Origin: Methanosarcina sp. MSH10X1
GTDB taxonomy: Archaea; Halobacteriota; Methanosarcinia; Methanosarcinales; Methanosarcinaceae
Length of the DNA stretch: 64,000 nt
Reading direction: 5' to 3'
NCBI RefSeq assembly: GCF_004099695.1
Contig: NZ_SCHL01000003.1
Coordinates: 124,001 to 188,000, forward strand
Shown here one piece after another: positions 28,406-40,079 of this stretch. Made by a program: the position numbers and the translations under genes. The first letter of the stretch is position 1. Each line of letters opens with the position of its first letter. The notes under the pieces are model-generated. The model was not told the origin of the DNA. It searched no databases and saw nothing but the letters and a program-made list of their open reading frames with translations.

Positions 28406-29197
28406 TCAGCGTTCTCCCGTTGTTATTTTTTGATCGCCCTCTTCAATTACTTTGACAAAGTGCCTGTCTGAAAGGTCTTCATCTCCGGACCAGAAGATTG
28501 CCTTATGATACTTCCAGGCGTCCGGATCAAATTCAATGATTCCCACATGAATTATAAGCTCAAGGACAAACCAGTAGGCTGCAAGCAGATGCAGTATGCG
28601 GATTAATGCTAAAGCATTCATATTAAATGGAGATGCGATAAACCAGAATACAGACAAAATCCACTGTGAGATCGGGATTCCAAGCGGAGCCCAGGTAAGA
28701 CTGTAAAGCACAATTCCGGTAACTGCTACAAGGAGAATTGCCAGGCTTTCGAAAACGAGAAGGATTTTCATCGCAGGATGAAGTTTCGTGACATAGTGCT
28801 CCTCACGCTCGTCATAGATCGTATAAGCCGGATACCTGCCCCTTCCAAAGAAATTTTTTATTGTACCGATGAGGCGTTCTGCATCGTCTTTTCCAAACAT
28901 ATAGGATTCTTTGAAATGCTCTATACGGTGTCTGACGCTGCATTTCTCTCCTTTGCAAGAAAATATGTTATAGGGGACCAGAAGCCAGTTTGAAACCAGG
29001 AAAAAAGGTACTGCAATCATATGCCAGGCTCTGGCTGCTTCGAAGGACATAAAACCCCACATAAAATATATTTTAAATCCGGTAATAAGAAGGACAAACA
29101 TGGAGACGAGATGCACCAGATGAGTGACCCTCTCAAGCCACGTATAGCGTTCAACTATCTTTCTTCTGGAAGCAGGTCTTTCAGCCGATCGTACCAT
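28406..29197 (-). CDS. Cytochrome b subunit of membrane-bound hydrogenase, second (vhx-like) operon
   Basis: 263 residues with four to five predicted membrane helices and the di-heme cytochrome b fold of group 1 hydrogenases. Candidate heme-ligand histidines are in LERVTHLVHLVSM, ARAWHMIAVPF and RILHLLAAYWFVLELIIHVGI, all conserved with the VhtC paralogue at 35102-35881. It would pass electrons from the NiFe enzyme to methanophenazine in the membrane. It follows the large-subunit gene after 14 bp. Confidence 0.9.
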   Translation of the reverse strand: MVRSAERPASRRKIVERYTWLERVTHLVHLVSMFVLLITGFKIYFMWGFMSFEAARAWHMIAVPFFLVSNWLLVPYNIFSCKGEKCSVRHRIEHFKESYMFGKDDAERLIGTIKNFFGRGRYPAYTIYDEREEHYVTKLHPAMKILLVFESLAILLVAVTGIVLYSLTWAPLGIPISQWILSVFWFIASPFNMNALALIRILHLLAAYWFVLELIIHVGIIEFDPDAWKYHKAIFWSGDEDLSDRHFVKVIEEGDQKITTGER

Positions 29198-29211: not shown

Positions 29212-31002
29212 TTAAACCACCCTGAAAATACGATCCGGGTGCTTTCCGGTTTTATCAATGGTATGGATCGCACATGCAAGGCAGGGATCATAAGAACGTG
29301 CCGTATGCATGATTCCGAGAGGGTTTGAATAGTCTACTCCAAGGGCATTTTCGGCAGCCGAGATCTTTGTCCCTATAAGTGCCTGCTCAACAGGACTTGG
29401 GATTCCCTGTCCGTTCCGCGGAGCAAGATTCCAGGTGCTTGGAACTACGGCCTGGTACAGGGTTGTCATTGAATCCGAGTTTGTAGCTACCCAGTGTCCC
29501 AGAGCTCCACGCGGGGCTTCCCACAGTCCCATTCCTTCGGAATCTCTTGCCATGGAAAGTTCAGTGTGCACCGCAACCTTTCCGCCTGCTTCGAGGTCCT
29601 GTCTGAGCCACTTTAACAACTCGGGAATTACTACCAGAATCTCCTGCATCCTTGCAAGCATGCGGGTATAGTTATTTGCAGGAGAGTAGCCATTTTCTTC
29701 AAAAGCTCTCGCAAGTCCCGTAACAAGAGGTTCTCGCATAACCAGAAGACGGGCAAGGGGACCTACCTCACAGGGAATTCCGTCATAATGAGGAGCTTTT
29801 ACCCAGGTGTAGCGGCTTTCCGAACCCCTTGTATAATCAATTTCATCAGGGTCTTCCTCAGGATTTGTGACCCCATTCCAGGGAGGACGGTCTGCTTCTT
29901 CATCAATATAGAACGCGTGAGTGATATTTTCCGAGATCTTCGTGTGGTCAAAGCTTTCAAGCTGTAAACTCCCGTTCATATAGCCTGAGGGAATGACTTT
30001 TTCGTCTGCCGGGCTTGCTGGATCATACCCGTCCCCGTTCTCAGGCTTGAAAAAGACCCCGTATGAAAGAAAACCAATCTGGTCAGGATTATTATAGCCT
30101 CCCGAACGGTCCAGCTTCAGACTAACCGGTAAGCCTAACAGCGTCTCTCCAACCAGCTCAGAACCGAAAGCCGTAAAAAGAGGTACATCTCCCCAGCCTG
30201 AAGCGTGTGAAAAATCATTGCTTGTAAGAGAATCATCCAGAAGCTCTTGCAGGCGTTCAATGACAAAATTCACAGCACTTTCCGGAGAGGAAGCCCTGTA
30301 GGTATTTTCAATCCAGGTCTCGGGAGGAACCCCAAGCGTAAAGTTCTCAACGAATTTTGAAGTCTGTGAAACATACGAGATAAGTTTCTGAATATCTGCA
30401 ACAGTTGGAGAATAAACCACTCCTCCGACATGCTGCAGGACGGAATGAGGCATTTTGCCTGCAATAAGAGCAATACCTTCGTGGAGGCGGCGGAACTCCC
30501 TGAGGGCAGCAACATAAGAAGATCCGGCAGGATAACGTGTACCTCTATCCTGGTTTACAAGAGGCATAAAACGTCCGGATAACTCACCCCATACGGCATT
30601 TCCCACATCCCCGTATTGTGTGAGGATATCACGATAGGCCGGGTTTGCAAGGTCCGGACCCCAGAGTATGTAAATATGCGCTGCATGACTGGCTATGAAA
30701 TTCATTGCCTGATGTATATTCCGCATAACAAGGGCATCTTTGGGAACCTGGTCCGCGACCCCGAAAAGGTCATCCAGAGCATTTGCTGCAGCTATACTGT
30801 GGCAAACCGGACAGACCCCACAGATTCTCATGGTAAAAAGGGCTGCATCCCTGGGGTCATGGTTTTGAAGCGACCTCTCAAAACCCCTGAAAACCAGACC
30901 GCTGCTCTGGGCATCAGTGATCACACCATCCTCACTGACCTCAGTATTGACTCTGTAATGCCCTTCAATTCTTGAAAGAGGATCTACTGTTACCTCTACC
31001 AT
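29212..31002 (-). CDS. [NiFe] hydrogenase large subunit, second (vhx-like) operon
   Basis: 596 residues. Both NiFe ligand motifs are intact: L1 RICGVCPVCH (about residues 60-69) and L2 DPCLACAIH near the C-terminus. The C-terminal extension after that His (TIDKTGKHPDRIFRVV) is retained, so processing by a protease is needed, but no protease gene follows in this operon; VhtD (34526-35011) might serve both. It starts at ATG 31002, overlapping the small-subunit stop by 1 nt (TAATG). Clearly divergent from VhtA (35907-37682), though collinear with it. Confidence 0.92.
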   Translation of the reverse strand: MVEVTVDPLSRIEGHYRVNTEVSEDGVITDAQSSGLVFRGFERSLQNHDPRDAALFTMRICGVCPVCHSIAAANALDDLFGVADQVPKDALVMRNIHQAMNFIASHAAHIYILWGPDLANPAYRDILTQYGDVGNAVWGELSGRFMPLVNQDRGTRYPAGSSYVAALREFRRLHEGIALIAGKMPHSVLQHVGGVVYSPTVADIQKLISYVSQTSKFVENFTLGVPPETWIENTYRASSPESAVNFVIERLQELLDDSLTSNDFSHASGWGDVPLFTAFGSELVGETLLGLPVSLKLDRSGGYNNPDQIGFLSYGVFFKPENGDGYDPASPADEKVIPSGYMNGSLQLESFDHTKISENITHAFYIDEEADRPPWNGVTNPEEDPDEIDYTRGSESRYTWVKAPHYDGIPCEVGPLARLLVMREPLVTGLARAFEENGYSPANNYTRMLARMQEILVVIPELLKWLRQDLEAGGKVAVHTELSMARDSEGMGLWEAPRGALGHWVATNSDSMTTLYQAVVPSTWNLAPRNGQGIPSPVEQALIGTKISAAENALGVDYSNPLGIMHTARSYDPCLACAIHTIDKTGKHPDRIFRVV

Positions 31003-32228
31003 TATTTTTCACCTCCAGCTCTCTCTGATGTGCCTTCTTCAGTAATGCCTTCCTTTTCCTCCGGCTTTTTCAAAACCGTCCTTCTTAAGGCGTGGGCACC
31101 TGCAGCAATAAGCCCTCCTGCTATTGCTACTCCTGCCACGGTGTCAAGATTGGTATCTGCAAGCCCGGCATCTTCAATCTCCACATAGAAGGGTCTGGTG
31201 CTGTCCGGAAAACCTGGCTGTACGCAACCTATACAAGGAGAGCCTGCCTGCGGACAGAAGTTAACATGGCCGTTCCAGCGGCGTGTGGCACAGTCGGCAT
31301 GTGAATAAGGTCCCTTGCATCCGAGTTTCCAGAGACATTTGGGTCCGCCTACTGTCGTTTCAAACTCTCCGCGGTCGTAAAATCCACGCCGCGGACAGTT
31401 TTCATGCACGGTGTGGTCTGGGGGATAGAAAACCTTCGGACGATGCCACCTGTCCAGCACTTCAGGTAAATCGTCAGGCACTCTGATTTTTCCCAGGGCG
31501 ATCGCTCCTACAGTTAAAAATACCCAGTCTGGATGGGCAGGGCAACCGTTAACGTTAATAACGGGAGTGTCTATCCCGAGCAGGTCTACAATTCCCTTTG
31601 ATGAGTCTTCCAGGGTAAAAGCAACCCCACGGTGGTCCATAAGTTCATCTATCTCACTTTCAGCGGCATTTACTCCACTGTGAGTTGCACACTGACCTAT
31701 TGCAACAATTACTGAGGCGTTTCTCGCAGCTATCTCAAAAATATCCCTGTAAATCTTTCCTCCGAGGACCATGTATTTTCCAGAACCATGAGGCCCATTT
31801 GCGATTGCGCCTTCCGCGATAAGTACATAGCCTCTTTCATGTTCCAGAATTTCTTCCAGCAGAATTTCAGAGTTGAGGTCACTCGTATTTGCAAGTTGCC
31901 CATCTACGAAGATGCCCTGCTGCATCATCAGCACTTCGTGATAGAGCAGGTTGAGGTTAAAAAGCTGGAGAAATTCCAGTATATCGGGATTTTCTCCGTC
32001 CAGCATTGAGATGCTGCATCCCGAATCCATTACCCCGTGAAGCCAGAGTACCTTGGTCTCAGGCAGCCCGTTAACGGCTTTTGCGATATCGCTTTTGTAC
32101 GTCTGCAGAAATAGCGAAGCTCCCAGTGCCCCCACAGCCTTTATAAAAGTCCGCCGGTCCATTTTCATGAAGTCAAGATTTTTAAACTTTTCAAGTAAGC
32201 CGTCATTATTCGTTCCATTTTCCCCCAT
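31002..32228 (-). CDS. [NiFe] hydrogenase small subunit with altered proximal cluster site, vhx-like operon
   Basis: 408 residues. A Tat signal is present (MDRRTFIKAVG, residues 23-33), and a C-terminal hydrophobic helix (about 370-390) would anchor it at the outer membrane face. Ligands of the medial and distal clusters are conserved (HTVHENCPRRGFYDRG, KCLWKLGCKGPYSHADC, CPQAGSPCIGC). The proximal [4Fe-4S] site differs: where VhtG has ECTGCSES, this protein has MDSGCSIS, so the first Cys is Asp68 (codon GAT at 32027-32025) while Cys71 remains. The enzyme may therefore have altered electron transfer or be inactive. There is no ribosome binding site before ATG 32228 and a TATA element lies very close, so the mRNA may be leaderless. 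Confidence 0.9.
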   Translation of the reverse strand: MGENGTNNDGLLEKFKNLDFMKMDRRTFIKAVGALGASLFLQTYKSDIAKAVNGLPETKVLWLHGVMDSGCSISMLDGENPDILEFLQLFNLNLLYHEVLMMQQGIFVDGQLANTSDLNSEILLEEILEHERGYVLIAEGAIANGPHGSGKYMVLGGKIYRDIFEIAARNASVIVAIGQCATHSGVNAAESEIDELMDHRGVAFTLEDSSKGIVDLLGIDTPVINVNGCPAHPDWVFLTVGAIALGKIRVPDDLPEVLDRWHRPKVFYPPDHTVHENCPRRGFYDRGEFETTVGGPKCLWKLGCKGPYSHADCATRRWNGHVNFCPQAGSPCIGCVQPGFPDSTRPFYVEIEDAGLADTNLDTVAGVAIAGGLIAAGAHALRRTVLKKPEEKEGITEEGTSERAGGEK

Positions 32229-32563
32229 CGCAGATAATTTTATATAAAGACATATAAAAAAAGGAGTCCAATATATTAAAGACTATCACAACTTCAAGAA
32301 CCCACCTTGCAGGAAAGCTTTTTGTGTCTCAGCAGCAGGATTTGTTCAGATCCGGTTCCTTAAAGATTCCAGCTTTTAAAATAAAAAATGAAAATTCAGA
32401 TGAAGACCCATCAGAATACACTTAAAATAAATATAATATTTCTAAAAACTTATATATTTTAATACCACTAGTTTATTTATCGAAATTTTAAGGTTAGTAA
32501 CATTTAGTAACAATGCTGCATATTTAAGGGAAGAAATGTGCCGCAAAATATGGGGGATAGAAT
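32229..32563. promoter_or_regulatory. Divergent control region, vhx-like operon and peptidoglycan-binding-domain gene
   Basis: On the minus strand TTTTTATATG (about 32252-32262) and CTTTATATAA (about 32239-32249) sit so close to the vhx-like start that the message would have almost no leader. On the plus strand AAACTTATATATTTTAATACC (about 32446-32466) is a TATA candidate for the gene at 32564. No other gene is visible in these 335 bp. Confidence 0.45.
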
Positions 32564-33487
32564 ATGACTATTGGGGATGGTCACGACTTAAGATCGCCGA
32601 GATTTGCAGGCGATGAGATTCTGGAGGCTTGTTATGACAATGAAAGAGTTCTCCAGAGAGGGGATAGCGGCTCTGCGGTAAGGAAAATCCAGCAGGCTCT
32701 GATATTTCTGGGTATTCCTGTGCCCGGAGCTGGAGCCAGTGGTACCTTTGATGGGGAAACCGAACTGGCAGTGAGAAGCTACCAGGAAGCACGCGGACTG
32801 AAGGTTGACGGTATAGTAGGGCCAGATACAATAGGAAGTCTGGATAAAGAATTTGTCGCGGGCGCACCTGAGGTTTTACCATCAACTGAACCAGAGATAT
32901 CGGATGTTCCGAGTCCTTTATTCCCGGAATCCCCGGTTCGAACACCAAGGGCATCTCCGGTTGAGCCTGTAAGGGCACCTGAAGTCCCGCCAGTACGTGC
33001 GCCCCGGGCTCCGCGAGTAGGAGCACCACCAGTTCAAATACCTCAACCTCCTGAAGCACCGGCAGCCCCGGTAGCAGAACCTCCAATTATGGCGACGCAG
33101 GCAGTTCCGCTCGAACAAACCCCGGCTCGGGTAACCAAACCCATAACTCCACCTGTAACCCGACTACCCCATACGGTTGATAGTCTGGGACGCAAATTCC
33201 ATACTGCAGGAACCTGGCGTGGGAATAATTCTTCTTTTGAAGCGGAGGCTGGTAAATCAGTACGTCTTGAAGTGAGAAACCTCAATGCCACTGAATCAGG
33301 CGTCCGGATAAAAACAAATACAGGGGAAACTAGAGAATCCGTGCTTCTACCTGACACCCTTGTGGATTTGGAATTTTCCGCAGTAGGTGAACCATTTATC
33401 TGGAGGTTTTATATTGAAACCGATAAGGAGGACTCTTTAATCGAGTGGAAACTCTATAGCAACTGGGTGCCGGGAGAATCCGAATAA
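32564..33487 (+). CDS. Peptidoglycan-binding-domain (PG_binding_1) protein with Pro-rich linker
   Basis: 307 residues. Residues about 27-92 form a PG_binding_1 helical domain (LQRGDSGSAVRKIQQAL, GTFDGETELAVRSYQEARGLKVDGIVGPDT in two parts). Residues about 100-200 are a proline/alanine-rich linker with PVRAPRAPRVGAPP-like runs. The last 100 residues look like a small beta-rich domain (SFEAEAGKSVRLEVRNL, WRFYIETDKEDSLIEWKLYSNW). No signal peptide or membrane helix is evident. Methanosarcina has no murein, so the ligand is unclear; such domains also occur in archaeal proteins of unknown role. A GGGGGATAG ribosome binding region precedes the ATG. It lies between two hydrogenase operons on the opposite strand. 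Confidence 0.8.
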   Translation: MTIGDGHDLRSPRFAGDEILEACYDNERVLQRGDSGSAVRKIQQALIFLGIPVPGAGASGTFDGETELAVRSYQEARGLKVDGIVGPDTIGSLDKEFVAGAPEVLPSTEPEISDVPSPLFPESPVRTPRASPVEPVRAPEVPPVRAPRAPRVGAPPVQIPQPPEAPAAPVAEPPIMATQAVPLEQTPARVTKPITPPVTRLPHTVDSLGRKFHTAGTWRGNNSSFEAEAGKSVRLEVRNLNATESGVRIKTNTGETRESVLLPDTLVDLEFSAVGEPFIWRFYIETDKEDSLIEWKLYSNWVPGESE

Positions 33488-34525: not shown

Positions 34526-35011
34526 TTAGAGTGAGGAAAAAACCTCTTCCCTGATAAGCTTTATAGCCCTGTCCACGCCTTTAAGGACCTCTGGACTTAT
34601 TTCCTGTGTAACCTGATTGGCGGGAGAGCCGATTTCAATTCCTATAACCACGACTTCCGGGAGCTGCTGAATCTGTTCCCCAATTTTCAATACATCGGTA
34701 ATTGTAAGGTCATGTATCGAAGTAAGAGGGTGAAATTCAATACCTCCGAGTAAGTCTTTCCCTTCTATACGGTGTACGGAACCCGGAGGGCTGTTTGCCA
34801 GAATTGCATCCACTATAATGACCTTCCTGGCACCTTCGATCAGGTTTAAAAGATCAAGCCCGCAGACCCCTGCATCCTCGATATCGAGGTTTTTGAGGTC
34901 TTTGAGTTCGGATTTGTGAAGAGCCTCGATAATTTTGAGGCCGACACCATCGTTTCCCATTAAAGGGCTTCCGCATCCCAGGATGCGGACTGGAGCATGT
35001 AATATAGACAT
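34526..35011 (-). CDS. vhtD: Hydrogenase maturation protease VhtD
   Basis: 161 residues of the HyaD/HybD/HycI peptidase family. It cuts the C-terminal tail of the large subunit once nickel is in place. Ni-sensing residues are visible: Asp in SPLMGNDGVG, Asp in VIIVDAI, and His in SIHDLTI. It is the last gene of vhtGACD, 90 bp after vhtC. The vhx-like operon has no equivalent gene. Confidence 0.93.
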   Translation of the reverse strand: MSILHAPVRILGCGSPLMGNDGVGLKIIEALHKSELKDLKNLDIEDAGVCGLDLLNLIEGARKVIIVDAILANSPPGSVHRIEGKDLLGGIEFHPLTSIHDLTITDVLKIGEQIQQLPEVVVIGIEIGSPANQVTQEISPEVLKGVDRAIKLIREEVFSSL

Positions 35012-35101: not shown

Positions 35102-35881
35102 TCAGTGCTTGTGTTCCTTCTTATTAGCATCAAACCTTGAATATTTCTCAACAAACTCTGAATAGTGAGTGTCTGAGAGGTCTTCTTTTCCTGTCAGGAA
35201 GATAGCTTTGTAGTACTTCCAGACATGAGGATCAAACTCCAGAATACCAACATGCACCACAAGTTCAAAGACAAACCAGTAGGTCATCAGCAGGTGAAGG
35301 ATCCTGTAGAACTGGATAGCAGTCAAATCGAATAAAGGCGCAATCAAGCCTCCAATCGAGAGAATCCATGACCCTATTGGCAGGCCGAGGACTGACCAGT
35401 CAAGTTTGTACAGCACAATGCCTGAAACTGCAATCAGGAAGATAGCTGTACCTTCAAGCACAATCAGGACCTTCATTACAGGATGAAGTTTGGTCTCGTA
35501 GTGGCCTTTTTCTTCATCATAGATGGAAAATGCAGGATACCTGCCCTTCCTGAAGAAGTTTTTAATTATACCGCCCAGACGAGTTGCATCTTTTGGACCA
35601 AAAATGTAATGGTCCGTAAAGTGTGAAATTTTTCCAAAAACCCCGTGACCTTCGGAAAAAATGTTATACGGGATAAGGATCCAGTTCACTGCAAGCAGGA
35701 ACGGAACCATTATCATGTGAAGGGCACGGGCAGAATGGAAACTCATAAAGTCCCATCCGGTATAGATCTTTAGCCCGGTAACGATGAGCACTATCATCGC
35801 AACGGCATGGACAGTGTGAGCTATCCTGTCAGTTACGGTATAGCGCTCAACAACCATTGACCGGTTGTTGTTAGATTTCAT
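35102..35881 (-). CDS. vhtC: Cytochrome b subunit VhtC
   Basis: 259 residues with four to five membrane helices. Candidate heme ligands are in [23 protein letters not shown] and [21 protein letters not shown]. VhtC carries electrons from the periplasm-facing hydrogenase to methanophenazine, feeding heterodisulfide reductase HdrDE and building a proton gradient (established for Methanosarcina Vho/Vht). A His/Lys-rich tail (NKKEHKH) closes the protein. It follows vhtA after 25 bp. Confidence 0.94.
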
Positions 35882-35906: not shown

Positions 35907-37682
35907 TTAGAGTATTCTTAGAGTATTTGGAGCGCGTTTCCCAGTCAGGTCAATGGTGTGGACTGCACATGAAATGCAAGGATCGTAGGACCTACCCATA
36001 TGGTAGATACCAACTGGATTGGTATAATCGACATCTCCGACCGGGTTGATTTTTGAACCAATGAGAGACTGTTCGAGCGGGCCAGGAACGCCATTGCTGT
36101 CTCTTGGGGACATTAACCAGGTACCCGGAACTACACACTGATAGTTGGTGACCTTTCCGTCGCCGCCGGCAGAGATCCAGTGACCGAGAGCTCCACGAGG
36201 TGCTTCCCATAGGCCCATTCCCTTGTTGTTCTTAGCTGCATTAAGGTCTACAGGCACGGAAATCTTACCCCCGGGCTCATAGTCAACTGTCACCCAGTTA
36301 AGCAGTTCATATGCGAGAATTGCGGTTTCCTGCATACGAGCCAGCATTCTGGTGTAAACATTAGCTGCAGAGTATCCTTTCTCATTGAAAGCCAGAGCAA
36401 GACCGGTTACCAGTGGCTCTTTAATTGCAAGCATACGTGCAAGGGGTCCGACTTCACCCGGAATTCCATCGTATCTGGGAGCTTTGTCCCAGCTGTACTG
36501 GCTATCCGAACCTCCGGTGAATACGATTTTCTCTGGGTCCGTAAACGGAACGGTTTCGCCTTCTGCTGGTGCGAAGTCATCGGCACTGTTCTTGTAGAAG
36601 GAGTGAGCAGTACTCTCCGTAATCTTGTCCGGATCAAATTTCAGATATTCGAGGTTTCCTGATACTACACCTGAGGTGAAAATACGATCTCCTTCCGGGC
36701 TCCTCGGGTCGTATCCGTCTTTGGGCTTGTAATATCCGCCGTATGCAACGAAGCAGATCTTTGAGGGATCTTTGTACCCACCGATTGTATCATGTTTAAG
36801 GCTTGCTGGAAGACCGAGCAGAGTTTCTCCTACGAGTTCGGAACCGAAAGCTGCATAGAATTCCACATCTCCCCAACCTGCTTCTTTGGAGAAATCATTT
36901 GAAGCCACTGATTTGTCGACAAGCCCCTGGAGGTGTTCAGTAACAAAGCTTACTGCTTTTTGGGGAGAGCTTGCCTTGTAGGTATTTTCGATCCAGGTAT
37001 CGAATGGAACCTTCAGAGTATGGCTGGATACGAAGTCCATGACCTCCAGATAATAAGTGGAAAGTTTGGTTATATCTGCAACATTAGCCGGGTAGGTATA
37101 TCCACCTGGATAAAGGGATGAAGGACCGGGCATTCTACCGCCAATAAGTGCAATAGCCTCCTGAAGACGCTTCTTTTCAGGAAGTGCTGCAAGGTAGGAA
37201 CTTCCCGCAGGTACAGCCGCGCCGTCCATCTTGTAGCTGATCGGGGCAAACCTTCCAACCATCTCTTTCCAGACCGAGTTTCCGGTATCTCCCAGTGTAG
37301 TAAGGACATTTCTGTACGCCGGGTTTGCAAGGTCAGGGCCAAAGAGCACATAGATATGGGTCGCATGGCTTGCAATCATGTTCAGTCCCTGAAAGATGTT
37401 CCTCATTACAAGAGCATCTTTAGGAACGTGCTCAGCGACACCGTACAGGTCGTCAAGAGCATTTGTGGCTGTCAATCCATGAGAAAGGGGACAAACACCA
37501 CAAATTCTCTGGGTTAGAAAAGCTGCATCTCTCGGGTCCTGCTTTTGCAGGATGCGCTCAAAACCCCTGAATATAAGGGACGATGACTGAGCATCGGTAA
37601 TAACACCGTTAGCATCTACTTCAGTGGATATGCGCTGGTGGCCTTCAATTCTGGTTAGGGGATCAACTGTAACGTTTACCAT
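35907..37682 (-). CDS. vhtA: F420-nonreducing [NiFe] hydrogenase large subunit VhtA
   Basis: 591 residues. NiFe ligands are in L1 [10 protein letters not shown] and L2 [11 protein letters not shown]; the C-terminal stretch after that His ([16 protein letters not shown]) is the part removed by VhtD. The N-terminus [14 protein letters not shown] is the classic large-subunit signature. Catalyses H2 oxidation (or evolution) outside the membrane. It begins 7 bp after the vhtG stop, so translation is probably coupled. Confidence 0.96.
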
Positions 37683-37689
37683 TTTTCAC

Positions 37690-38838
37690 TCACTCTCCTT
37701 TCATTCTCCTTACAGCATGTACACCTGCAGCAACTGCAGCTGCACCGACAGCAACCTTGGCTACTGTATCAATGTTTGCTCCAGCGACTCCTATATCTTC
37801 ACGTTCAACATACAGCGGTCTTGAGGTGTCTGGCCATCCGGGATCTACGCAGTTAATGCATGGTCCTCCTGCCTGAGTACACATGCTTACTGAGCCATTC
37901 CATCTGCGAATTCCACAGTCTGCGTGGGCATAAGGAGCTTTACAGCCTAGTTTCCACAGGCACTTTTCTCCGCCTACCTGTTCATCGAATTCTCCACGGT
38001 CATAGTATCCGCGGCGTGGGCAATTTTCATGCACTGTGTGGTCCGGGGGATAGAAGACCTTTGGCCTGTTATAGTCGTCAAGAAGGGCCGGAAGATCGTC
38101 AGGTACTTTGATCTTTCCGAGAATCACTGCACCCAGGGTCAGAAGAACCCAGTCAGGGTGAGCAGGGCAACCAGGGATATTAATTACTGGCTTATCGATG
38201 TTTAACTCCTGCAGCATACCTTTTGATTTGTCGGTCTTTGCGAAGGCTACTCCTCTGTAGTCCGTATCCTTGGCAACATCGCTATCTGCAGAGGTTATTC
38301 CTCCATAGCAAGCACATGTGCCGACTGCAACGATAGCAGCTGCGTTCTTTGCAGCTTCTCCAAGCGTATCCTTGAAAGTTTTGTTTCCAATCACCAGATA
38401 GCGTCCTGAACCATCAGGACCGTTCGGGATTGCGCCTTCAACGACCAGGATATACCCGCCTTCTTCGTAAATTTCTTCTTGGAGGATTTCGGAGTTAAGC
38501 TCGGAGGTGTTTACGAGCTTACCATCATTCCAGATTCCCTGCTGTGCACAAAGAGTCTCATGGAAGGCAAGGTTAACATTGAGCTTTTCGAGTGCCTGTA
38601 CAAGGTCAGGATTGCCTGCATTTAAGACAGATTCGGAACAGCCAGTGCATTCGGAGCCGTGGATCCAAAGAACCTTTGTCTCTGCAAATTCAAGCGCCTT
38701 TACAATGTCAGTCTTGTAGGTGCCGAGGAACGCAGATGCTCCCATTATACCTACTGCTTTCATGAAAGTGCGGCGGTCCATTTTTAAAAAGTCCACACCG
38801 TCCAGTGTACGGACAAGATTTTTTATTCCAGTACTCAT
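37690..38838 (-). CDS. vhtG: F420-nonreducing [NiFe] hydrogenase small subunit VhtG
   Basis: 382 residues from ATG 38838; a GTG three codons upstream (38847) has no ribosome binding site. The Tat motif DRRTFMKAVG is at residues 21-30. Proximal cluster cysteines Cys64 and Cys67 are in ECTGCSES, and the other ligands (GTCACYGG, PGCPAHPDW, VHENCPRRG, KCLWKLGCKAPYAHADC, CTQAGGPCINC) are all present. A C-terminal helix (VAKVAVGAAAVAAGVHAV) anchors the protein. First gene of vhtGACD. Confidence 0.96.
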   Translation of the reverse strand: MSTGIKNLVRTLDGVDFLKMDRRTFMKAVGIMGASAFLGTYKTDIVKALEFAETKVLWIHGSECTGCSESVLNAGNPDLVQALEKLNVNLAFHETLCAQQGIWNDGKLVNTSELNSEILQEEIYEEGGYILVVEGAIPNGPDGSGRYLVIGNKTFKDTLGEAAKNAAAIVAVGTCACYGGITSADSDVAKDTDYRGVAFAKTDKSKGMLQELNIDKPVINIPGCPAHPDWVLLTLGAVILGKIKVPDDLPALLDDYNRPKVFYPPDHTVHENCPRRGYYDRGEFDEQVGGEKCLWKLGCKAPYAHADCGIRRWNGSVSMCTQAGGPCINCVDPGWPDTSRPLYVEREDIGVAGANIDTVAKVAVGAAAVAAGVHAVRRMKGE

Positions 38839-40079
38839 CTCTACCACATCTTAATTTTACCCAAATTATACATACGAAGAAAATTTTGAATAATTATCCA
38901 CCGTAATTATATAAATATATACATAAATTTACCACTAATGTTTTCAATGTGTGAATAGTATTTAAGGTTTTTTACACGATACGATAATTATATTAATTGG
39001 CTGCATTGTAAGTTTATGATTCGGTGACAAATATATCGAGCTTTCTAAATAAATAAACAATCAAATGTACGAAGAGTGACAACATTGTACATATATGAGG
39101 AATTAAAGCATTCCGAAGAAGAAAAAGAATTAAAAAAATAAACTAAATCTCAAGAGTTAAAAGCAGCCGGTGAAGTAATAATTCATATTTAGAAATTTGC
39201 CTGTATTATAACAAAATGCATAAAAATTGAGTAAATACAGAGAATTTTGAAAAGAAAAATAGAAGTCACTTCATTCGCAGGGAACATTTCATTAATTAAG
39301 CCTTCTCAACCGGGACTGAAATTTCGTCACATTAAATCGTAGCGTCTCTAATGGTCCTGTTTTATGTTTCTGGAAACAGGATTATTCTATCCGTGATAAA
39401 GGATGGAGAGGTCATAACTCTGGACACCCCCTATAAACTTTAACTGTAATGCTCTGAAGAGAGCTGTTAAGGAAGATGGAAACCAGAAAGTACTAAAAAA
39501 TCTATTTTTTCCATGAAGCTGTAGAAGAAGTAACACTTAAGTTACAATTCTTCACACAAGTTACAGTTATTCATACAATTTAAAACTTTCAGGGTTCATA
39601 AATAGATAGAGCAATTCCGGAACCATTTCCAAAAAACCTCTAAAGCAAGTTCAAGATCGCGAAAAAAACATTATTAAATAATACAAGTGAAATAAGAAAA
39701 CAAAAAGAATATAAAATAGAACCATAGAATTTTAAAAAACAATTTTCGACAATATACTGATTCAAAACGTAGAATTCGGTTCCTGTTTATGAAACCTCTA
39801 TTCTTCTATTTGCGGCAAGTCGAGAAAAGAAGAACGAGCGATTAAAAGCAGCACAATGTAAATTAAAAACAGTAAGCGAAAAAGGTTGTTTAACCAGTTA
39901 AGAAAATAGACTGGATAGATTTTTTGCCCGGTTGAGACCTGTAGATATATATACCTTACAAATATATATCTCTTGTAAAATAATTCTTGCAAATATCTTA
40001 ATACAGGAATTTATATTAGGAAAACAAATAATTACCATTATAATTAACAGAATTTTAAAAGAAAACATTTCGAGGTAAC
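38839..40079. promoter_or_regulatory. Long divergent vht/hyp control region
   Basis: 1.24 kb of very AT-rich DNA without a convincing ORF. For vht, a minus-strand TATA run (ATATATTTATATAA, 38905-38920) implies a leader of roughly 40 nt. For hyp, plus-strand GATATATATACC (39944-39955) and AATATATATCTC (39961-39972) imply a leader near 90-110 nt. An inverted repeat CCTGTTT/AAACAGG (39356-39362 and 39374-39380) and a tandem 19-mer (39539-39576) lie between. The region is far longer than two promoters need, so it may hold an untranslated RNA or several regulator sites. Confidence 0.55.
39539..39576. repeat. Tandem 19-bp direct repeat upstream of hyp operon
   Basis: Two abutting copies, AAGTTACAATTCTTCACAC and AAGTTACAGTTATTCATAC, differ at 3 of 19 positions. 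They lie about 500 bp before hypC, between the vht and hyp promoters. A spacing of 19 bp is close to two helical turns, as expected for cooperative binding of a regulator; this is inference. Confidence 0.7.

Follow-up and report, generated by a model that had tools for sequence, protein, structure and literature searches.

An aspartate in place of a proximal-cluster cysteine in the Vhx hydrogenase small subunit of Methanosarcina

In [NiFe]-hydrogenases, electrons leaving the NiFe site pass first to the proximal cluster, and the Glu preceding the first ligand of this cluster is a proposed proton relay in some enzymes. To our knowledge, natural ligation of the proximal cluster by Asp is known from a few enzymes only.

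The case closest to the one described here comes from M. barkeri. Table 1 of Yonemoto et al. 2014 (PMC4070099) lists the protein YP_305362 with a Cys to Asp change at position 1 of a cluster entered as 'Proximal (4Fe4S)?', the entry having several members. YP_305362 is taken to be the vhxG product of M. barkeri vhxGAC (Mbar_A1841-A1839), and on the strength of that entry the core observation is already published, and is not new. M. barkeri VhxG, by description an orthologue from another species, has Asp at proximal position 1 like the VhxG of the window, the 64,000-nucleotide stretch of Methanosarcina sp. DNA analyzed here. The M. barkeri entry gives the single ligand change only, and describes neither Glu to Met and Thr to Ser replacements nor the distribution of the change.

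The same residue has been placed at the same ligand position of A. macleodii HynSL, as an engineered C78D change on the G1 (H230C/P285C) background. According to PMC4070099, the C78D enzyme has measurable H2 evolution, no other residue replacing Cys is tolerated as well as Asp, position 78 tolerates Asp alone or nothing, and the loss of activity in Asp variants went with poor processing of the small-subunit Tat signal. The same source cites a Pyrococcus ferredoxin as having a natural Asp ligand, and PsaC as a protein in which Cys to Asp changes can give [3Fe-4S] clusters.

Asp is also described as a ligand of the proximal cluster in group 1h hydrogenases (PMC7174314), and VhxG shares with them an Asp at a proximal ligand position. 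The proximal motif of R. eutropha H16 HofK (chain in PDB 5AA5) reads CDGD, hence the second Cys is replaced there, not the first: group 1h, a different subgroup, has CxxD, Vhx has DxxC. The H16 megaplasmid protein was taken as HofK on the grounds of length (351 aa), a location next to the large subunit, and similarity; its gene (L086, 4963-6018) is annotated 'hydrogenase expression protein HypE'.

Within Methanosarcina, Vht (Vho) shares with Vhx the GAC gene order, a Tat-exported small subunit, a NiFe large subunit and a cytochrome b, but keeps ECTGC and has its own vhtD, whereas vhxGAC is without a protease gene. Vht is the active enzyme in vivo, whereas vhx has been described as incapable of yielding an active hydrogenase (PMC6030560); PMC13224831 is likewise cited against Vhx activity. 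A third, divergent small subunit is encoded beside vht in L062 (13413-14636), L064 (3067-4293), L069 (3622-4953) and L071 (3909-5093), accompanied in the first three of these by a large subunit of its own.

The vhx and vht loci and the altered ligand loop

In the window vhtGACD (38847-34526) is followed 2.3 kb downstream, on the same minus strand, by vhxGAC (32228-28406), which has small, NiFe large and cytochrome b subunit genes in GAC order. The features are:

37690..38847, minus strand: vhtG, small subunit with ECTGC, paralogue of vhxG (TIGR00391 199.1 bits, over cut-off)
35907..37682, minus strand: vhtA, large subunit, paralogue of vhxA
35102..35881, minus strand: vhtC, cytochrome b, paralogue of vhxC
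34526..35011, minus strand: vhtD, maturation protease (TIGR00072 112.2 bits)
32263..32287, minus strand: promoter-like box GATAGTCTTTAATATATTGGACTCC 5' of vhxG (orthologue upstream DNA compared by eye)
32211..32213, minus strand: candidate non-canonical vhxG start ACG, where the distal vhx group has its ATG start in the alignment
31002..32228, minus strand: vhxG, Tat-exported [NiFe]-hydrogenase small subunit, 408 aa from an in-frame ATG
32145..32156, minus strand: twin-arginine export motif RRTF of VhxG (R25-F28), read from the sequence and kept in orthologues
32016..32030, minus strand: VhxG proximal-cluster loop M67-D68-S69-G70-C71 (MDSGC in 18/18 of the subgroup)
31224..31691, minus strand: other VhxG cluster ligands C180, C229, H275, C278, C298, C304, C313, C325, C332, C335
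29212..31002, minus strand: vhxA, large subunit with intact NiFe-site motifs (PF00374 273.7 bits)
29263..29289, minus strand: vhxA DPCLACAIH, start of the C-terminal maturation cleavage region (present in 17/17 MDSGC-group VhxA examined)
28406..29197, minus strand: vhxC, cytochrome b subunit, aligning with VhtC (weak, sub-cut-off cytochrome b561 match)

An ORF with the peptidoglycan-binding domain PF01471 lies on the opposite strand between vhtD and vhxG (32564-33487, +). No maturation protease gene belongs to vhxGAC itself, vhtD of the neighbouring operon being close by.

VhxG and VhtG are about 60% identical. VhxG matches both PF14720 and PF01058 above the Pfam gathering thresholds, but scores 162.4 bits against TIGR00391 (hydA), under the curated cut-off of 179.5 which VhtG passes (199.1). 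The initial annotation had placed the protein among group 1 small subunits, in the vhx branch, and this assignment holds; its ORF (31002..32228, minus strand, 408 aa) and Asp codon proved exact. AF2 modelled VhxG poorly (mean pLDDT 60, below 50 in the cluster loop 69-73 and from residue 300 onward), and the model was set aside.

At the aligned proximal loop VhxG reads HGVMDSGCSIS, VhtG HGSECTGCSES. Asp68 (GAT, 32027-32025) stands at the first proximal-cluster ligand, Cys71 (TGC, 32018-32016) is kept, and 11 of the 12 cluster ligands are thus retained, the first proximal Cys being the exception. All ten ligands outside the loop, the cysteines among them described initially as preserved, are present; we take C180 and C229 to belong to the proximal, H275, C278, C298 and C304 to the distal, and C313, C325, C332 and C335 to the medial cluster. 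The substitution had been presented as one of a single residue. Asp68 is real, yet its neighbours change too, residues 67-69 being altered jointly from ECT to MDS, with loss also of the Glu preceding the first ligand; NiFeSe enzymes lack Glu there as well. The numbers Cys64 and Cys67 given to the VhtG ligands apply only when counting from an internal ATG, as from the GTG start at 38847 they are Cys67 and Cys70. At the medial cluster, the usual Pro position is occupied by Cys in both VhtG (37690-38847) and VhxG (31002-32228), as in NiFeSe enzymes, and a medial [4Fe-4S] cluster is predicted for both.

The partner VhxA has, as first noted, intact NiFe motifs: RIEGH, RICGVC, the PSTWNLAPR region and DPCxxCxxH, that is, the L1 and L2 motifs and the catalytic Arg region. 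Every NiFe motif is kept in 17/17 MDSGC-group VhxA sequences. The C-terminal extension past DPCxxCxxH, which serves maturation in this family, is also retained.

Distribution, history and selection

Vhx and Vht loci were gathered from whole genomes of the order plus GTDB contigs. Thirty distinct Vhx small subunits were found, 18 with MDSGC, 11 with ECTGC and 1 with GCTGC. CTGC is retained in all 44 Vht-type rows, CxxC in 30/30 further archaeal hydA-family loci, in line with the view that the proximal Cys pair is nearly invariant. The question was whether Asp is conserved in the vhx branch or, were it a local mutation, replaced by Cys in all orthologues. It is conserved in at least 18 genomes, which does away with the second case; as a mark of the entire branch it is ruled out by the 12/30 orthologues keeping Cys. 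Among the 30 orthologues Asp never occurs without the flanking Met and Ser. This all-or-none change of ECT to MDS is new here.

Beneath the constant MDSGC codons vary over the 18 genomes, Asp being encoded by GAT or GAC, Ser by TCG, TCA, AGT or AGC. Besides the motif, the MDSGC group differs from its nearest Cys relatives at VhxG positions 86 and 141, VhxA positions 35 and 170, and VhxC positions 114 and 207. In the VhxG tree, 72% of the bootstrap replicates unite the MDSGC rows. In the concatenated G+A+C tree, from which the three motif columns were removed, the Cys-bearing L052 and the L043/L056/L060 group fall among MDSGC rows, and monophyly of MDSGC is not excluded (AU p = 0.09). A single origin of MDS is favoured by the VhxG tree, but not by the motif-free concatenated tree; interspecies recombination, or more than one gain or loss of the motif, is possible.

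The pattern of distribution was compared with that of other energy-converting genes in 24 vhx-bearing whole genomes (14 MDSGC, 10 Cys). An rnfC gene scoring over the cut-off is missing in 13/14 MDSGC genomes and present in 10/10 Cys genomes (Fisher p ~6e-6, a value which ignores relatedness, so that few events in one genus could suffice). A 362-aa EchE-like ORF, called only on ORF length and a PF00374 match, is found in 13/14 MDSGC genomes and in 1/10 Cys genomes (G069). The combination of Ech with absence of Rnf is accordingly seen in 13/14 MDSGC and 0/10 Cys genomes, a phylogenetically confounded contrast. The concentration of MDSGC in Ech-positive, Rnf-negative species is new here.

For the MDSGC group the codon model gives omega values of 0.109 for VhxG, 0.119 for VhxA and 0.181 for VhxC; values for Vht of the same genomes are slightly higher (VhtG 0.154, VhtA 0.155, VhtC 0.207). 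Decay as judged by dN/dS is ruled out, omega (0.109-0.181) being at or below that of working Vht; the first impression that the gene does not look like simple decay agrees with omega values of 0.11-0.12, far from 1, for VhxG and VhxA. The VhxG reading frame is open in 18/18, free of frameshift and nonsense mutations, and neither an omega near 1 nor a broken frame marks it as a pseudogene. The total tree length is 4.98 substitutions per codon, at which neutral evolution would give roughly 11 amino-acid changes at each codon; over the three motif codons 0 changes were observed against about 34 expected under neutrality, again a rough estimate. About half of the VhxG positions (229/408) are invariant within the MDSGC group, so the motif is constrained, yet not uniquely so. 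Seven His columns are invariant across all 55 aligned VhxC and VhtC sequences.

Individual loci depart from this picture. In L036 (11022-11812) vhxC consists of two overlapping ORFs, a possible frameshift, an assembly error being conceivable in this MAG. In L057 VhxG has a long EETTH repeat tail, and the VhxA C-terminal extension a duplicated TIDKT.

The vhxG start region

In the distal Vhx group vhxG begins with ATG behind a GGAGG-like Shine-Dalgarno sequence. The near clade includes 22 loci (18 MDSGC and 4 Cys), namely the window, L034, L036, L040, L041, L043 and L046-L061. Here the aligned start codon is ACG in 18, ATG in 3 and GTG in 1, and a GGGGGA-type sequence is found upstream instead of GGAGG. 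In 9/22 near-clade loci the stretch from the upstream stop to the conserved LLEKFKNLDF block is free of ATG, GTG and TTG. The block varies almost only at third positions (minor-letter counts by codon position 2, 2 and 21), and is therefore probably translated. The alignment makes ACG a candidate conserved non-canonical start of vhxG, the alternatives being other near-cognate codons or an unrecognised initiation; the conserved ACG codon at the aligned start is itself new here. In the window an in-frame ATG (32228) lies five codons before ACG (32213-32211), which makes the start of this vhxG ambiguous. A non-canonical start conserved like this would, if ACG is really used, be unusual in an archaeon.

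No expression could be measured from the promoter-RBS of M. barkeri vhxG, and its RBS was not discernible (PMC11409679), data which fit both weak vhx expression and an ACG start. The promoter-like box at 32263-32287 (minus strand), of a form like GATAGTCTTTTAATATA, looks conserved across the near clade. The DNA upstream of vhxG in L061, on a contig shared with M. spelaei L042, is wholly different past about 30 bases, perhaps by insertion.

Maturation and possible activity of Vhx

Of the loci read as far as this gene, nearly all have vhtD directly upstream of vhxGAC, and no other protease gene was seen beside it. From this arrangement, VhtD is likely shared between Vht and Vhx; that it might process Vhx has already been suggested (PMC6913021). 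In L066 (1812-4645) vhtC is in two pieces, vhtG and vhtA are missing, and vhtD beside vhxGAC is intact; a second vhtGAC, without D, resides elsewhere in this genome (L067).

The one M. barkeri vht deletion examined here, that of PMC6030560, took out vhtGACD, the protease VhtD included, and the reported absence of Vhx activity may in part be confounded for this reason. Since no protease is encoded by vhxGAC itself, a vhtD-deleted strain could not mature VhxA if VhtD processes Vhx, and a negative result obtained without such maturation would not prove Vhx intrinsically inactive. The idea that the reported inactivity of M. barkeri Vhx may be confounded by loss of vhtD is new here.

The genes are intact, conserved and under purifying selection, and they still encode the other metal ligands, the Tat signal and a VhxA tail that can be cleaved. 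The best explanation, held at a probability of about 0.5, is that Vhx is a conserved, little-expressed Vht-like hydrogenase with a three-Cys/one-Asp proximal cluster, matured in trans by VhtD. The product of vhxGAC would be a paralogue of Vht, the hydrogenase that reduces methanophenazine, and like it would be bound to the membrane and exported by the Tat route. Asp68 would ligate one iron of the proximal [4Fe-4S] cluster, or of a labile [3Fe-4S]/[4Fe-4S] cluster, and thereby shift its potential and lability; the neighbouring VhtD would mature VhxA; and production of the complex may be weak or confined to particular conditions, with Vhx serving beside Vht as an accessory of low flux. Against this reading stand the reported inactivity of Vhx and the loss of Glu67. 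A retuned potential, a sensor or a non-hydrogenase complex had been proposed initially; the last of these is made less likely than a hydrogenase-type enzyme by the NiFe motifs, Tat signal and processing tail, together with the published activity of the C78D mutant.

The main rival, which we regard as possible but well short of probable, is that MDSGC Vhx is a conserved pseudoenzyme, made but transferring no electrons from the NiFe site, and retained in another role, as an assembly partner, in H2 sensing, or as a structural part of the Vht/Hdr membrane chain. It would account for loss of the ligand plus the adjacent Glu, for the absence of reported activity in M. barkeri, for strong purifying selection despite that absence, and for concentration of the change in species with Ech and without Rnf. 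However, the NiFe, medial and distal ligands, the cytochrome His residues, the Tat signal and the tail are all kept, although a scaffold could do with fewer of them; activity survives the same Asp in A. macleodii, and a non-systematic look at the operon revealed no sensor or kinase gene with it.

Alternatively, Asp68 is not a ligand at all: three Cys would hold a [3Fe-4S] or solvent-ligated cluster, and Asp would be a displaced proton-transfer carboxylate replacing Glu67. This is rather unlikely, and overlaps with both the preferred reading and the pseudoenzyme, so that confidences are neither additive nor exclusive. The change from ECT to MDS does shift the carboxylate by one residue while keeping the hydroxyl of residue 69 (Thr or Ser), and [3Fe-4S] clusters can result from Cys to Asp changes in PsaC (cited in PMC4070099); Pyrococcus ferredoxin and group 1h hydrogenases, on the other hand, provide natural Asp ligands.

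Slow decay, in which a poorly expressed vhx gathers slightly deleterious changes (ATG to ACG, GGAGG to GGGGG, Cys to Asp) and the selection measured is mostly historical, is more doubtful. The ACG start position and weakened Shine-Dalgarno sequence throughout the near clade would suit it, as would the M. barkeri promoter-RBS without measurable expression, but the 18 VhxG genes are unbroken, omega is at or under that of working Vht, conservation extends to the ACG start position, MDSGC and the promoter-like box, and the motif lacks the roughly 34 changes of the neutral expectation. A sequencing error or local mutation in this assembly can be dismissed, as 18 separate assemblies share the triplet while differing in its synonymous codons and the M. 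barkeri case is listed in PMC4070099, and no support for such an error was found.

A bolder form of the preferred reading, and a speculative one, is that in Ech-type, H2-cycling Methanosarcina Vhx might be a working, low-dose hydrogenase retuned by DxxC, started at ACG and matured by VhtD, judged inactive mainly because of strains lacking VhtD and expressing vhx weakly. Asp fixed in about 18 species, beside sister orthologues which keep Cys, offers a natural comparison for ligand tuning of a hydrogenase, and the belief in Vhx inactivity is reopened by the deletion of a plausible maturation protease along with vht in the strain of PMC6030560.
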